A stretch of DNA of 64,000 nt from Nitrospirota bacterium (lineage in GTDB: Bacteria > JACPQY01), in assembly GCA_016180645.1 (NCBI GenBank), contig JACPAV010000024.1, positions 72,085 through 136,084 of the forward strand, written 5' to 3'. Below, in pieces: positions 50,251-58,612 of the stretch. Position 1 is the stretch's first letter; every line of letters begins with the position of its first letter. Position numbers and translations under genes: made by a program. The notes beneath the pieces are model-generated. The model was not told where the DNA came from. It did no database searches and saw only the letters and a program-made list of their open reading frames with translations.

Positions 50251-51185
50251 TTATTGGGGTGTGAGGCGGGCTGAGTATAGGGTGTGTTGGATCGGCAAGT
50301 CGGCGGGATAGTCGATCTTGCGCCGGGCTGCTTCGGTCATGAGGTGGTACGCGACCTCCACATCCAGGGTGTGGGATCCCGGCGCTCCGGCCACTCGTTC
50401 GGCGAATCTGAACGAGCGTTCCTTACCGGGGTGGAGCCGGTTGTCCCGAAGTTCGAGAATCATCGGACGCCAGAGGATCCATCGCTTCAGGGTATGAGTC
50501 TGCGTTCTGACCATGCTTCCGTCGGCTGCGTTCCGAAGCGTGAACGTGACCGTCACAAAGCGGTCGGGATCACCGGTCGGGAAAGTGTGACCTGCTCCTA
50601 CGTTTGACAATTTCAATTCAACGTCGATCGTGCCTCTCCCATTCTCAAACCGGCTGCGATCTTCCGGTTCGATGCTCACGGCCTTCCGGACCATGTCCCC
50701 ATCATGCCCGCCTCTCCACAGGTGGCGTTTGGAAGGTCTCACCGGGCCGCCGAATGCCACGGGGCGCTCGACGGCAGGCATGTGACACTGGATGCAACCG
50801 TATCCCTGAACGGGGTCGTCCCTGACTTCCGCATAGGTTCCGCACGGCGGGCCGATGTAGAACATACCGGGGTCCTTCCCTTCCACCTCGTGGCAACGGC
50901 GGCACACACCGCCGCCATCGAGAAATGAGGCATCCTGTCGAACCGGGTGAGGCGCCGCCGAATCCGCGTACGGGCCAACGATAACGCCGTCTTGAACGTG
51001 GCAGATAGCGCACGTTCCGAAACCGTGAAGATTCTCAGCGGGCCGAACAGGCGATAGCCCAGCGAACCCATCGACGCAACCAGCAGGGCGATCACCCCGA
51101 TGGCGGCCTGACCGTGTGCGGACCATCCAACCCCGATCACCTTCCCCCACGGCGTTGTTGAATTCGGCCGGCTCCACAACATCTT
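50251..51185 (-). pseudogene. Membrane-anchored three-haem cytochrome c, frameshifted
   Basis: From the ATG at 51185 the frame encodes a single membrane anchor (AAIGVIALLVASMGSLGYRL) as far as FGP near 51040. The haem-binding part is in another frame: AENLHGFGTCAICHVQDG, then CRRCH and CIQCH, with further His residues and a long beta-rich C-terminal domain (VGAGHTFPTGDPDRFVTVTF). A one-base indel around 51035-51045 (GGCCCGCTGAGAAT) would join them. The result would be a periplasm-facing multihaem cytochrome. It follows the selenoprotein gene by 11 bases. Either a real loss of function or a sequencing error; I cannot tell which. Confidence 0.7.
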
Positions 51186-51195
51186 CAACGCAGCA

Positions 51196-51717
51196 CTAAG
51201 GCTTGAAGGAGAACGCATCCAACGTGAGTGGCGGTTCCTTTTCGCCGGCGAATTCGAAGTGGCCGCGAACGGAAAGCGGCGATGGCCCCCGAGAGTGCGG
51301 GTCCGCCAGCAACTCGTGCAGCACTTCGTTTTGCGCCAAGCTCAAGCGTTGTTCACTGCCTGAGACGACGAAGAAGAACGAGAAACCTTGTCGGAGGAGG
51401 ATTCCCTCGGCCTCGATCCGCACCGCGCCGACTTTCTGCCCGGCCTTCTCTACCAATTGTCTTATCCTGGGGAAGTCGACGGGTTTCCCCGGCTTCGGGA
51501 TGATTTCGGCCTTCTGCTTCTTGAGACTCACGTCCACGCGGTCCACGGTCGGTAACTTGGCGAGAGCCCGACGGGCCCCCAGCGCGCAGAACGGTCAGGT
51601 CATGCCGAGGACCTCCACCTCGATCCGCATGATCTCGGCGCGGGATGGGAGGGGAACCGCCACGACGCTCAGCACGGAAGCGATGAAGAACATCTTGAAA
51701 AGGTCTCGGGGTTTCAC
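51196..51717 (-). CDS. Secreted heavy-metal-associated (HMA) selenoprotein, Sec at an in-frame TGA
   Basis: From a GTG at 51717 the frame gives 173 residues if the TGA at 51597-51595 is read as selenocysteine. A signal peptide (KMFFIASVLSVVAVPLPSRA) precedes an HMA domain. Its metal site reads GMT-Sec41-PFC44, where family members have GMTCxxC. HMA-type sequence continues on both sides of the TGA (MRIEVEVLGMT before, CALGARRALAKLPTVDRVDV after), so this is not a random stop. The C-terminal 60 residues look like a small beta-rich (OB-like) domain. Likely role: periplasmic binding of Hg(II) or another soft metal, like MerP, inside a mer-type cluster. A SECIS-like hairpin follows the TGA. Confidence 0.82.
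51563..51579 (-). promoter_or_regulatory. SECIS-like hairpin downstream of the in-frame TGA
   Basis: On the minus strand GGGGCCC-GTC-GGGCTCT folds into a seven-pair stem (two G-U pairs) with a three-base loop starting with G. The loop lies 23-25 bases after the TGA. Known bacterial SECIS elements have a small apical loop with an early G at about 16-37 bases. Confidence 0.6.
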
Positions 51718-51730
51718 CGGTCGTCCCTTC

Positions 51731-52612
51731 TCAAAAGAGGGCGTACGCACCGGCGCGAATCTTCCGGTCCTGAGAAAGTTGTGTCCCATTCAAGTTCTCC
51801 CATAGTGGAAGTTGGTATGAAATCTCGAAGGTGAAACGATCCATCAGGAAATACTGGATCCCGGGGGCCGCGAAGAGGGAGTTCCCACCCGAGTCGGTTA
51901 TGGCCTGGTTGAAATGCCTTGACCGACCGGCGACCCCGCCGTTCAGTTCAAGCATGACATAGAATTCGGATCGCGCTTTTTCACTCGACAGCGCGAGGTA
52001 TTCCGCGGAAAGGTTGACGCCCACGACATGCCCTTGTCGCACCCCGCTGTTCGACCCGTTGAGTTGCCCGGCGGGTCCCGCGTAGATTCCCGCCTTCTTG
52101 TGTATGTACTGGAAGGGCAGGTCCCAGATGAAATCGTAGGAGCCGCTGCCGATGTTGTCTGCGCCCGTCGGGACTTTTACCCCGGCAGCCGGCCCGAATT
52201 GTAGGCGTGTCGAGGGGCCCAGACGTTTGAAGACATCCGGGGAATAGCGAGCGAGGAACACGGCTTCGCCGATTCCACTCGCCTCGCTGCTTGCACCGCT
52301 TGAATCGCGGGCTTCAGTTCGCACGTATGGAACAGCGGCCGCCAGGGTCAGATCTTCATTGACCGGGAATGCGCCCATGAGGCCGATGACCTGGGCTTCC
52401 ATCTTGGGCCGGCTGCCGGGGATGTCCCCGGTGGTCCCAAGAAGCGTTTCCTTCCGAATGATGTCGGTGAAAACCCGCGCGAGTCCGACACCGGAAAAGA
52501 GCGTCTGGGCCGCCGAGCCTTGAATCGGCAAAGCGTGTGCCGTCGCCGCCATCGTAACCACAGCCCCCATCAGGAGCCCCAAAACGCGGGCCGGCCATTG
52601 GACGGATCTCAT
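51731..52612 (-). CDS. Outer-membrane beta-barrel protein of the metal cluster
   Basis: The 293-residue protein has a signal peptide (LGLLMGAVVTMAATAHA, cleavage before LPIQ) and long amphipathic strands with glycine-rich turns (LTLAAAVPYVR, AVFLARYSPDVF, VGVNLSAEYLAL). It ends in a short strand with a terminal Phe (KIRAGAYALF), the outer-membrane insertion signal. It resembles the 'transporter'/phenol-degradation MetA-like barrel group rather than a TonB receptor. It lies 13 bases before the selenoprotein start. Inferred role: passage of a metal or small molecule across the outer membrane. Confidence 0.75.
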   Translation of the reverse strand: MRSVQWPARVLGLLMGAVVTMAATAHALPIQGSAAQTLFSGVGLARVFTDIIRKETLLGTTGDIPGSRPKMEAQVIGLMGAFPVNEDLTLAAAVPYVRTEARDSSGASSEASGIGEAVFLARYSPDVFKRLGPSTRLQFGPAAGVKVPTGADNIGSGSYDFIWDLPFQYIHKKAGIYAGPAGQLNGSNSGVRQGHVVGVNLSAEYLALSSEKARSEFYVMLELNGGVAGRSRHFNQAITDSGGNSLFAAPGIQYFLMDRFTFEISYQLPLWENLNGTQLSQDRKIRAGAYALF

Positions 52613-52992: not shown

Positions 52993-53580
52993 TCAGCCGC
53001 ATCCGCACGCACCGCCTCCGTCTTTCTTGGGAGGGTTCTCCGACCGTGGGGCACAGCATTCGGATACGTCGTTTGACGACCGTTCCGACGGCGCTTCGGT
53101 TTGGGACATAGCCTTTTGGACAACTTGTTTCACGTTGCCGAGGCAGCAAGCGCCTTGTGGATTAAGCTCTTCGCAGCGGTCCAACCCCTGACGGCATTTT
53201 TCGGCGATAGAGTCGAGCGCCCCGGATTTGCCCGTCCGCCGGACTTCCTCCTCGATGCTCCTAACGGTGTGCTCAAAGCAGTAGCAGACGGTCCTGGAAT
53301 CTCCCGTCGATTTCTGAAACACGGGAACCTTGATGTCCCGGGCAACGAACCGGATGCCGTCGGCTTCGTGGAAATAGACGATTTCGCAAGCTCCGCCCTT
53401 GCAGAACCGATAACCGCCGGAACCGTTGAGGCACTTTAATGCGGCCTTGGTGAGCAAGGAAACAAGAGTGATCGTCTTGACCTTCCGCCCTTGGGTCCCG
53501 CAGGCGGGACAACGGTCCGAGATCACCCGGGTCGGTTCCGAAACGGATCGGTGGGGCGCGGTGTCTTCAGGATTCTCCAT
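52993..53580 (-). CDS. CopZ-like zinc/[2Fe-2S] protein with Cys-rich tail
   Basis: The ATG at 53580 gives 195 residues. The N-terminal part has the zinc-binding pattern of the archaeal CopZ N-terminal domain (RCPACGTQGRKV, YRFCKGGACEIVYF). The next part resembles a BFD-type [2Fe-2S] domain (VCYCFEHT, CRQGLDRCEELNPQGACCLG). The tail is Cys-rich (ECCAPRSENPP, then GGGACGCG). CopZ delivers copper to chaperone or ATPase partners; here it probably binds Hg or another thiophilic metal in the cytoplasm. It overlaps the 42-codon gene by 14 bases. Confidence 0.82.
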   Translation of the reverse strand: MENPEDTAPHRSVSEPTRVISDRCPACGTQGRKVKTITLVSLLTKAALKCLNGSGGYRFCKGGACEIVYFHEADGIRFVARDIKVPVFQKSTGDSRTVCYCFEHTVRSIEEEVRRTGKSGALDSIAEKCRQGLDRCEELNPQGACCLGNVKQVVQKAMSQTEAPSERSSNDVSECCAPRSENPPKKDGGGACGCG

Positions 53581-53695
53581 GGCGATCCCCACTATTGTTC
53601 CGGCTCATGATCGAGAAGAAACCCAAGAGGAGAAGCATTCCGCCCCCCACGACGCAGCAAGCCAACCCTCCGCCGGACAGTGCTTCGAGATTCAT
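53567..53695 (-). CDS. Small membrane peptide with vicinal cysteines
   Basis: The frame encodes 42 residues, MNLEALSGGGLACCVVGGGM followed by LLLLGFFSIM and a hydrophilic tail. There is a single membrane helix with adjacent cysteines at its start, like the Cys pairs in the first helix of MerT or MerF. It lies directly before the CopZ-like gene and overlaps it. Too short for homology; context makes it plausible as a mercury-handling peptide. Confidence 0.5.
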   Translation of the reverse strand: MNLEALSGGGLACCVVGGGMLLLLGFFSIMSRNNSGDRHGES

Positions 53696-53869: not shown

Positions 53870-55297
53870 TCAACTTGCGCAACAGGAAAGCTTGGTTACG
53901 TCCCGCTTGAACGAGAGGGCCGCGATCTTGTAGACCTCCGAGAAGGTCGGGTAGGCGAAGGTCATCCGAAGAATGTCGCCCACGACCATCTTGTGCTGGA
54001 CGAGAAGCGTGCCGTAGTGGATGAGCTCCGCCGCCTGCGGTCCCGCGATGTGAACGCCCAGAATCCGATACGTCTTGGCATCCACGATGAGTTTCAAGAC
54101 CCCGCGGGTGTCGCGGATCGCGGCGGATTTCGGGACGTGCTCGAAGGAGATGAGTTTCGTTTCAATTTTGTGACCCGCGGTCCGGGCTTCCGCCTCTTTC
54201 CATCCCACGCCGGCGACCTGGGGTTCCGAGAATACCGCGTGGGGGACGGTCGAACCGTCCCACCTTTTCTTGTTCCCGCTGAGGGCGTTCTCCGCGGCGA
54301 CGCCGCCCTGCTGGGCGGAAACGGTGACCAACATCATCTTCCCCGTCACGTCTCCCGCCGCCCAGACGGCCTTGGCCGTCGTGCGAAGCATTTCATCCAC
54401 TTGGATGCCGCCGCGCTTGTCCGTCTCAATCCCCGCGCGATTCAGCTCCAGATCTCGCGAATTGGGAACGACGCCTGCGGCTACCAGGAGTTGTTCGCCG
54501 ATAAACTCCCGGGAGCCATCCGGCGTATTCGTCCGCAAAATCACACTGCGGGAATCTCTCGAGACACATTCCACCCTGCCACCCGTGTGAATCTCGATGC
54601 CTTCATCGGTCAGGCTCCGCGCCAGCTCGCCGGAGATTTCGGGTTCCTCATTGGGCACGATCCGGTCGAGCGCTTCAAGAATTGTCACCTTGGAACCGAA
54701 GCGGGCGAAGACCTGTCCGAGTTCGACGCCGATCGCCCCGCCGCCGATCACAAGGAGGGATTTGGGGAGGCGGTCCAGCTCCATCGCCTCCTTGTAAGTC
54801 AGGTATCCGACCCGGTCCAAACCGGGGATGGGGAGGATCTGGGGGGATGCCCCGGTTGCAATGATGAACCTGTCGGATGCGATTTTCCGTCCGCCTCCGT
54901 CGATTTCATGTTCGGAAACGAACTTTGCGGGACCCTTCAGCAGAGTGATGTTTTCGTACGCGCCGAGGAGATCTTCGTATTTGAGTTTTCGCATCTCGGT
55001 GACGAGTTCCGTTTTCTGTCGAATCACCTCGCGGAAATCCGCCGGCGCATCGCCCTTGGGGATGCCGGGGATGCCGTCGCGGGAGTACACGTGGTATCGC
55101 TCGGCGGCGTGGAGAAGGTTCTTGGAGGGAACACAGCCACGATTCACGCACGTGCCGCCGATGACGCCTTTCTCGATCAGCGCCACCCTGGCCCCGAGGT
55201 CGCTCGCGCGGATTCCCGCGGCGAACGCCGCCGATCCCCCTCCGATCACAACCAGATCGAATTCGCCCGATTTTCTTTCGCTTCCGAACAGTCCCAT
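53870..55297 (-). CDS. merA: Mercuric reductase MerA
   Basis: The ATG at 55297, preceded by AAGGAAG, gives 475 residues. It is a flavin disulfide reductase: FAD site VVIGGGSAAFAAGIRA, redox Cys50/Cys55 in GGTCVNRGCVPSK, NAD(P)H site LVIGGGAIGVELGQVFARFG, WAAGDVTG. The C-terminal end KLSCCAS has the vicinal Cys pair (472-473) that distinguishes MerA from lipoamide dehydrogenase and delivers Hg(II) to the active site. It reduces Hg(II) to volatile Hg(0) with NADPH. The N-terminal HMA domain found in some MerA proteins is absent. Second gene after the merTP fusion, 11 bases apart. Confidence 0.95.
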   Translation of the reverse strand: MGLFGSERKSGEFDLVVIGGGSAAFAAGIRASDLGARVALIEKGVIGGTCVNRGCVPSKNLLHAAERYHVYSRDGIPGIPKGDAPADFREVIRQKTELVTEMRKLKYEDLLGAYENITLLKGPAKFVSEHEIDGGGRKIASDRFIIATGASPQILPIPGLDRVGYLTYKEAMELDRLPKSLLVIGGGAIGVELGQVFARFGSKVTILEALDRIVPNEEPEISGELARSLTDEGIEIHTGGRVECVSRDSRSVILRTNTPDGSREFIGEQLLVAAGVVPNSRDLELNRAGIETDKRGGIQVDEMLRTTAKAVWAAGDVTGKMMLVTVSAQQGGVAAENALSGNKKRWDGSTVPHAVFSEPQVAGVGWKEAEARTAGHKIETKLISFEHVPKSAAIRDTRGVLKLIVDAKTYRILGVHIAGPQAAELIHYGTLLVQHKMVVGDILRMTFAYPTFSEVYKIAALSFKRDVTKLSCCAS

Positions 55298-55308
55298 GTC
55301 CGTCTTCC

Positions 55309-55899
55309 TTAGCCCTGGGCGGGCAGCTCGGCCTTGTAGCCGGCTTCGTTGATCACCTGAACCATCCGCGGTGGCTGGACCTGATCCGGGTTGTACCGCA
55401 CCGTCACCGATTTTCCCCTCACGCTCACGTCCACATCGAAAATGCCCGGCAGCTTGGCCATTTCCTCCTTGATGTGGCTTGCGCACGATGAGCACGACAT
55501 GCCTTCAACGTGCAGGTTGGCCGTTCGGTAGCCGGCGGGCGCGATGGTTGCCTGCTCCGCGTTCGCCGAGGGGGCAGACGACCCATCAAGCAAGTTCGCG
55601 TAAACGGAACTGCCGATAAAGAAGGCCACGAACAGGCTTGCGGCCCCGAGCAGCTTGGGCGTGAATCTCTCGCCCTTGAAATCAGCCGCCAACGCGTAGG
55701 CCCGGCGTTTCTCGCGGTACCAAACGCCCCACGCGACGGACAACAGCACCACCGCGGCACCTTGAGAATACCAGTGGTATTTTCCGAGAATGCCGCCCGC
55801 GCCAATGCCGCCCAATCCCAGCATGATCAGGAGGAGCGGGACCGCGCAGCAGCTCGACGCGAACAGAGCCGAGAGAAGACCGAGGTTTCTTGCTTTCAT
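55309..55899 (-). CDS. merT: Fused mercuric transport protein MerT-MerP
   Basis: The 196-residue protein has three membrane helices (about 8-35, 45-60, 82-102), with the MerT Cys pair Cys17-Cys18 in LFASSCCAVPLLL. After a linker comes a C-terminal HMA domain, LHVEGMSCSSCASHIKEEM (Cys136, Cys139), equivalent to MerP. It imports Hg(II) and hands it to MerA. The start is set by AAAGGAGAAAAACC before the ATG. It heads the operon under a sigma-54 promoter rather than the usual MerR-type promoter. Confidence 0.93.
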   Translation of the reverse strand: MKARNLGLLSALFASSCCAVPLLLIMLGLGGIGAGGILGKYHWYSQGAAVVLLSVAWGVWYREKRRAYALAADFKGERFTPKLLGAASLFVAFFIGSSVYANLLDGSSAPSANAEQATIAPAGYRTANLHVEGMSCSSCASHIKEEMAKLPGIFDVDVSVRGKSVTVRYNPDQVQPPRMVQVINEAGYKAELPAQG

Positions 55900-56070: not shown

Positions 56071-57435
<1,365 letters not shown>

Positions 57436-57562: not shown

Positions 57563-58612
57563 TCATTTGGAGACCCGTATCTCGCCCGACTTCAGTTGAT
57601 TCAGCTTCTCGACCATCTTTCCGGGTGGCACGAACGAAACGATTCGAAGGTCTTCGCGCTCCACGCCGGAAGCATCCAAGAAAAGGACGGTGGGCACGCC
57701 GTCCTCTTCAAACCGATCCTGCGCGTCGAGGCTGGCGGGGCTGGTATCGAGCGTGACATCGGCTTGCACCATGATGACTCCTTCGGCGGCCTTGTGGACC
57801 GCGGGATCGGTGAAGGTCCGCTTGTCCAGTTCCTTGCAGGGTAGACACCAATCGGCGTAGAAATCGATCAGGACAGGTTTGTCTTCAGCCTTTCCCCGAT
57901 CAAATACATCATTGCCGAAAACCATCTCCCCGGTCAACGGTTTGGCGAAATAGACCGCCATCCCCAGGAGAATGAATCCGAAGATCTTCTTGATCCAAAC
58001 CAGCCAGGGTCCTGAACGGGGCAGGGATTTCAGGCTTCCCGAAAATGTCCCCAATAGAAAATAGGGAACCCCCAATCCGAGCGAGAGGGTGAGAAACATG
58101 GAGAAGCCCGTGATAGGATCGCGAGTCTGACCGACGTAGAGAAGAAGACCGAGGACGAACGGCCCGATGCACGGGGCTGCCACGATCCCCACGGTCAGTC
58201 CCATCACGAGCGCCTGGACGGGCCCGGAATATCCCCGCCTCTTCGGCAACAGGAACGAGGGCACGCGCAGTTCATACAGGCCGAACTGGCTCAGGGCCAA
58301 CGCGATCATGAGAGTTGAAAACAGTCCCAGGACCCACGCTTTCTGGAGCAGCGATCCGAGCATTTTCCCGGACAGGGCGGCGCCGACTCCGATGGCGGAG
58401 TACGTGACGGCGATACCGAGCACATATAGAAGACTCAGCACCATCACCCGCGCGCGACGACTTTCCCCTTGTCCCGTGAAGTATCCGACCGTGATCGGAA
58501 TCAAAGGGTAGACGCAAGGCGTTAGGTTGAGCGCGAGGCCGCTGAGGAAGATGGCCCCGTACGTGAGGAAAACACCCCGATGAAGGAGCAACCCTGCGAT
58601 GTCTTGTTCCAT
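57563..58612 (-). CDS. dsbD: DsbD-like thiol:disulfide interchange protein (no N-terminal alpha domain)
   Basis: The 349-residue protein has a CcdA/DsbD-type membrane domain with the redox Cys33 (LNLTPCVYPL) and Cys148 (VAAPCIGPF), then a periplasmic thioredoxin domain (FYADWCLPCKE, Cys256/Cys259, cis-Pro in DGVPTVLFLD). The DsbD alpha domain is missing. It carries electrons from cytoplasmic thioredoxin to the periplasm, keeping target cysteines reduced. It is the last gene of a thiol-redox operon (63648 to 57563), and would be a natural reductant for the neighbouring periplasmic Cys/Sec metal proteins. Confidence 0.92.
   Translation of the reverse strand: MEQDIAGLLLHRGVFLTYGAIFLSGLALNLTPCVYPLIPITVGYFTGQGESRRARVMVLSLLYVLGIAVTYSAIGVGAALSGKMLGSLLQKAWVLGLFSTLMIALALSQFGLYELRVPSFLLPKRRGYSGPVQALVMGLTVGIVAAPCIGPFVLGLLLYVGQTRDPITGFSMFLTLSLGLGVPYFLLGTFSGSLKSLPRSGPWLVWIKKIFGFILLGMAVYFAKPLTGEMVFGNDVFDRGKAEDKPVLIDFYADWCLPCKELDKRTFTDPAVHKAAEGVIMVQADVTLDTSPASLDAQDRFEEDGVPTVLFLDASGVEREDLRIVSFVPPGKMVEKLNQLKSGEIRVSK

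Follow-up and report, generated by a model that had tools for sequence, protein, structure and literature searches.

A gene at 51196..51717 on the minus strand of the window, i.e. the whole 64,000-nucleotide stretch of DNA analysed here, very probably specifies a secreted selenoprotein of 173 residues in which an HMA domain is followed by an OB-like domain. The UGA at codon 41, which occupies the first metal-ligand position of the motif GMT-U-PFC, almost certainly encodes selenocysteine (Sec). The most plausible role of the protein, to which we give a probability of about 0.8, is that of a periplasmic Sec metal carrier that would hand a soft metal to a MerT/HMA importer and to the mercury(II) reductase MerA. 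What is decisive for reading this TGA as a real Sec codon is the existence of homologues with TGA in the same metal-ligand columns, together with the conservation of the sequence downstream of it.

An in-frame TGA in a putative metal site

The frame running from 51717 to 51196 on the minus strand starts with GTG, stops with TAG and is broken by nothing other than a TGA at 51597-51595; its translation reads VKPRDLFKMFFIASVLSVVAVPLPSRAEIMRIEVEVLGMT-U-PFCALGARRAL...AFSFKP. The initial annotation had placed this single interruption at the first ligand of a GMTCxxC motif, and the sequence bears this out: the TGA (51595..51597, minus strand) falls on a column that is either TGA or Cys in the homologues. 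Past the TGA, the G+C content by codon position follows the same pattern as in coding genes, in the same frame. A run of 131 open codons is expected by chance in ∼7% of cases at the stop-codon frequency of the window, and openness alone is weak evidence. A genome-wide reassignment of TGA was considered and rejected, the adjacent barrel gene itself terminating with TGA. Inspection of the letters further suggests a ribosome-binding site, GAGAAGGG, that precedes the GTG by 7 nt (51725..51732, minus strand), and a probable signal peptide with a hydrophobic core and a PSRA end (residues 1-27; 51637..51717, minus strand), which had already been noticed ahead of the HMA domain and which corresponds to a low-confidence N-terminal helix in the predicted model.

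The HMA domain (residues 29-96; 51430..51633, minus strand) is matched by Pfam HMA (PF00403) over residues 34-94 with 35.1 bits against a gathering threshold of 24.8, so that HMA sequence lies on both sides of residue 41, as first proposed. In the model of the whole protein (pLDDT 83.9), this part adopts a ferredoxin-like beta-alpha-beta-beta-alpha-beta fold, with structural matches to HMA7, CopZ and MerP at Z 11-12 (11.4 for MerP 1osd). The predicted fold of the C-terminal 77 residues (97-173; 51199..51429, minus strand) is an OB barrel, in agreement with the OB-like domain initially suspected. Modelled alone (pLDDT 84.7), they display the order E-E-E-H-E-E, as expected of an OB fold, in which a helix separates the third from the fourth of five barrel strands. 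Their structural matches are mostly OB-fold proteins, headed by the C-domain of NlpE (E 1.3e-3, TM 0.65, 28% identity) and including the OB domains of SSB, PriB and tRNA synthetases at Z 6-8. A sequence profile of this domain gave no significant match in PDB or Pfam.

A hairpin 23-25 bases past the TGA had also been taken as a sign of Sec insertion. The SECIS-like hairpin itself is present, with a GUC loop (GCUGGGGGCCC-GUC-GGGCUCUCGC; 51560..51583, minus strand), but it is indistinguishable from chance. Indeed, it does not exceed shuffled sequence in stability (z = +0.73), and among 400 random in-frame positions of the window genes, 74.5% are followed by a qualifying hairpin and 12.8% by one that is equally stable. 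Since most random positions qualify in a window with 61% G+C, the hairpin was rejected as evidence for Sec: it is compatible with Sec insertion, yet it is no evidence for it. An Rfam scan of the window returned a 5S rRNA and a tRNA only, and no SECIS family.

TGA and cysteine at the ligand positions across the family

The genome from which the window comes (4.7 Mb, 65 contigs, 97% complete) possesses all four genes selA, selB, selC and selD, whose presence the initial annotation had made a key point. They were found with 556 bits for selA, 370 bits for selB, 73.3 bits for tRNA-Sec (selC, with a tca anticodon) and 357 bits for selD (L082, G000:C5:71685-72605). In many bacteria SelD itself contains Sec, and the selD gene found here has a TGA of its own in frame (CAGUAGK), with a hairpin after it.

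The read-through protein was searched against 192 genomes, which yielded several matches with TGA as sole interruptions, and profile searches of the relevant phyla added further relatives. Within the two-domain family, five genomes besides that of the window (G074, G193, G099, G274 and G191) have TGA at metal-ligand columns. The congeners G074 and G193 encode full-length two-domain proteins with TGA at both ligands (GMVUPTU and GMVUPVU), while those of G099 and G274, again from one genus, share the motif GTLRCVFU with TGA at the second ligand. G191 contains both a two-domain TGA copy (GMTUGGU) and a Cys copy (GLSCPFC). The metal site is thereby UxxU in G074, G193 and G191, and UxxC in the window protein. 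All-Cys members of the same architecture, with motifs such as GLACPFC, are found in G272, G231, G232 and G216, and a single-domain form (GMTUGLC) in G109. As anticipated for a true Sec position, the column is thus Cys or TGA, and conservation continues downstream of it.

Other HMA genes with TGA are conserved in the same congeneric pairs. A small secreted protein that has a single HMA domain and two TGA codons (GMVUGAU) is kept in both G074 and G193 (L097:1537-1830, minus strand; L100:1474-1767, plus strand), and a tandem HMA protein whose second ligand position is a TGA (MLCEKU) in both G099 and G274 (L146:1240-1797, minus strand; L149:1378-1983, plus strand), near the two-domain TGA gene. 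After the TGA, dN/dS amounts to 0.19 (G074/G193) and 0.13 (G099/G274) for the two-domain family, and to 0.25 and 0.23 for the two related HMA protein pairs; the part downstream of the TGA is under purifying selection in these four TGA-bearing pairs of relatives. Purifying selection was assessed in the relatives, and for the window copy, of which no close relative was found, the homologues are 23-29% identical.

In the gene tree, the all-Cys members form one clade (support 99/98), and the TGA members are found across the branch that leads to it; the window protein sits on a long branch, the placement of which is not exactly sure. The MerP-type relatives from named genomes (L024-L042) have Cys at the motif wherever it is readable, and no TGA member was found among named organisms. 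Besides, a plasmid search returned eight weak matches that are HMA-only, and a phage search returned none.

Both selA and selB were detected in G193, G099, G274, G109 and the genome of the window. Neither gene was detected in two genomes that contain TGA members, G074 (97% complete) and G191 (98% complete). Missing contigs could explain this absence, and G193, the congener of G074, has both genes. All-Cys members are also present in genomes endowed with selA and selB (G272 and G232); the use of Sec is therefore the choice of the gene, and not only that of the genome.

A mercury-related neighbourhood and competing explanations

Directly upstream of the HMA-OB gene lies a gene for a Phenol_MetA_deg-like outer-membrane beta-barrel protein (51731..52612, minus strand). 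The HMA-OB start is only 13 bases past the TGA stop codon of the barrel gene, for which reason the two are probably co-translated. The barrel protein of the window is itself below the Pfam threshold, and homologous barrels adjoin the HMA-OB gene in six other genomes (G074, G193, G191, G272, G216 and G231); those that were scanned with Pfam (G272, G191 and G074) are Phenol_MetA_deg (PF13557). In G191, the TGA (U..U) copy and the all-Cys copy flank the same barrel gene (L074, 6724-8819, minus strand).

Further upstream, all on the minus strand, are genes for a CopZ N-terminal-like iron-sulfur metallochaperone of the CC type (52993..53592; NF047645, 102.4 bits, cut-off 100), for MerA (53870..55495; TIGR02053, 521.9 bits, cut-off 454), whose true start is probably inside this open reading frame, and for a MerT-MerP-like fusion with an all-Cys HMA domain (GMSCSSC; 55309..55899; Pfam HMA, 52.7 bits). 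The latter reaches 27.8 bits for MerT, below the cut-off, and 91 bits for NF033556, whose cut-off is 180. They are followed by a gene for a DsbD-like membrane protein with a thioredoxin domain (57563..58612, minus strand; PF02683, PF13899), a candidate supplier of periplasmic reductant. Several relatives likewise have MerA and MerT-like genes close by, the MerA homologues being found near the family gene in G099, G274, G109, G231 and G232. A MerP-like protein in a mercury cluster had been proposed at the outset. The cluster stands, with MerA and MerTP-like neighbours, whereas membership of the MerP family proper is not supported, the protein scoring 27.0 bits against TIGR02052, below the cut-off of 92.55.

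Two other genes of the neighbourhood deserve mention. A divergent gene for a sigma-54-type activator, recognized by its motifs (56071-57435, plus strand), adjoins the mercury genes, whose regulator it may be in place of MerR. Downstream of the HMA-OB gene, a multihaem cytochrome-like gene (50251-51218, minus strand) seems to be split between two frames, with the membrane anchor in 50739-51218 and the CxxCH haem motifs in 50251-51177, which points to a frameshift, or to an indel in the assembly, around 51020-51030.

This last gene has a bearing on the idea that the TGA at 51597-51595 arose by a sequencing error, or else by a recent nonsense mutation in a gene of the Cys type (TGC/TGT). The assembly is a draft of 65 contigs, the neighbouring cytochrome-like gene (50251-51218) looks frame-shifted, and the exact copy has no close relative that would confirm it. 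Still, an error or a pseudogene is very unlikely because the TGA is conserved in congeneric pairs with purifying selection downstream of it. Indeed, the column that it occupies is the very one at which independent lineages also have TGA, the genome has a complete Sec machinery with a selD of the Sec type, and the frame stays open downstream with a coding-type composition. Equally improbable is a real or regulated stop, whereby the gene would yield a 40-residue peptide or be read through according to the selenium supply. Termination competes with Sec insertion in bacteria and this genome also uses UGA as a stop, but it is hard to see what purpose a 40-residue signal-peptide fragment would serve, and the purifying selection that relatives display past the TGA shows that the full protein matters.

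A less far-fetched, though still unlikely, alternative accepts Sec and assigns it to a redox switch, with a periplasmic selenenylsulfide acting in a thiol oxidoreductase or a stress sensor that would signal through its OB domain as in NlpE. Redox proteins with UxxC motifs make up most of the known prokaryotic selenoproteins (PMC2398784), a DsbD-like protein is encoded nearby, and the top match of the OB domain is the Cpx activator NlpE. Against this, the fold around UxxC is HMA and not thioredoxin, MerA and MerTP are the neighbours, and the distribution of U among members, at the first, the second or both ligands, is more in keeping with a metal site than with a catalytic redox motif.

A proposed Sec-based metal carrier and its known relatives

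Our preferred reading thus remains that of a periplasmic metal carrier. The frame, the Sec machinery, the conservation of the TGA column, the downstream selection in relatives, the predicted folds and the neighbourhood were all established by computation; the actual insertion of Sec, the export of the protein, the identity of the metal, the direction of its transfer and the partners involved are inferred. SelB and tRNA-Sec would decode UGA codon 41, and the exported HMA domain would hold a mixed selenolate-thiolate site (Sec41/Cys44) for a soft metal. A MerP-like action is probable, in which Hg(II), or a different soft ion like Cu(I), would be caught after its entry via the neighbouring barrel, held on Se/S and then given to the all-Cys HMA/MerTP importer before reduction by MerA. 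Mercury is favoured as the metal because of the Mer neighbours and of the known strength of Hg-selenolate bonds. Docking of the carrier to the barrel, or to a different partner in the envelope, would probably fall to the OB domain, while the reduced state of the Sec/Cys pair may be maintained by the DsbD-like protein.

The principle that an HMA domain can have Sec in its metal site is already catalogued, and single-domain HMA selenoproteins are known. The best NCBIfam model for the window protein is NF041115 (UxxU_metal_bind, metal-binding (seleno)protein), which likewise describes an HMA-type domain with Sec at the metal ligands and which is passed by the tandem HMA relative of G099 (98.7 bits). 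It is listed among prokaryotic selenoproteins as UxxU with two Sec, a 'putative mercuric reductase' (PMC13188914). However, the window protein scores only 43.4 bits, below the cut-off of 95; the model has 74 positions that cover the HMA part only, whereas the window protein adds an OB domain and has U..C instead of U..U. With MerP (TIGR02052), it shares the signal peptide, the GMTCxxC-type HMA fold and the MerTP/MerA neighbours, but Sec replaces the first Cys and the OB domain is extra. Among the selenoproteins of the Global Ocean Sampling survey, a Sec-containing MerP has already been reported ('Mercuric transport protein MerP', two sequences), as a table entry without motif or domain (PMC2398784). 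The MerT/CopZ fusion-like heavy metal transport selenoprotein NF045683 similarly places Sec in mercury/copper transport; unlike the window protein, which reaches 17 bits against its cut-off of 375, it is a membrane MerT fusion. Finally, E. coli NlpE (CutF) is also an envelope protein with a C-terminal OB domain, but no significant sequence-profile match links it to the OB domain of the window protein, and it lacks an HMA domain.

No named family matched the two-domain HMA-OB form above its cut-off, and the papers and family models that were searched gave no instance of the HMA-OB architecture, of its pairing with a barrel or of a free Sec/Cys exchange between the ligands. The two-domain proteins therefore look like a real and mostly undescribed family of selenium-based metal carriers. 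Whereas known selenoproteins are mostly redox enzymes, here a metallochaperone fold bears Sec in its metal site. Members may have Sec at the first, the second or both ligands, and their all-Cys relatives offer natural controls for asking whether Sec tunes such a site for mercury. Besides, the conjunction of barrel, HMA-OB gene and MerT/MerA neighbourhood provides a handle for annotation pipelines, which now split such genes or call them pseudogenes. More tentatively, since we consider this broader view somewhat less likely than its converse, the family may represent envelope metallochaperones of several little-sampled phyla in which Sec and Cys are swapped at either or both HMA ligands, mercury or another soft metal being trafficked on a genetically encoded selenolate and the OB domain providing the link to an outer-membrane channel. 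If true, these bacteria would possess a selenium-based front end for mercury detoxification.
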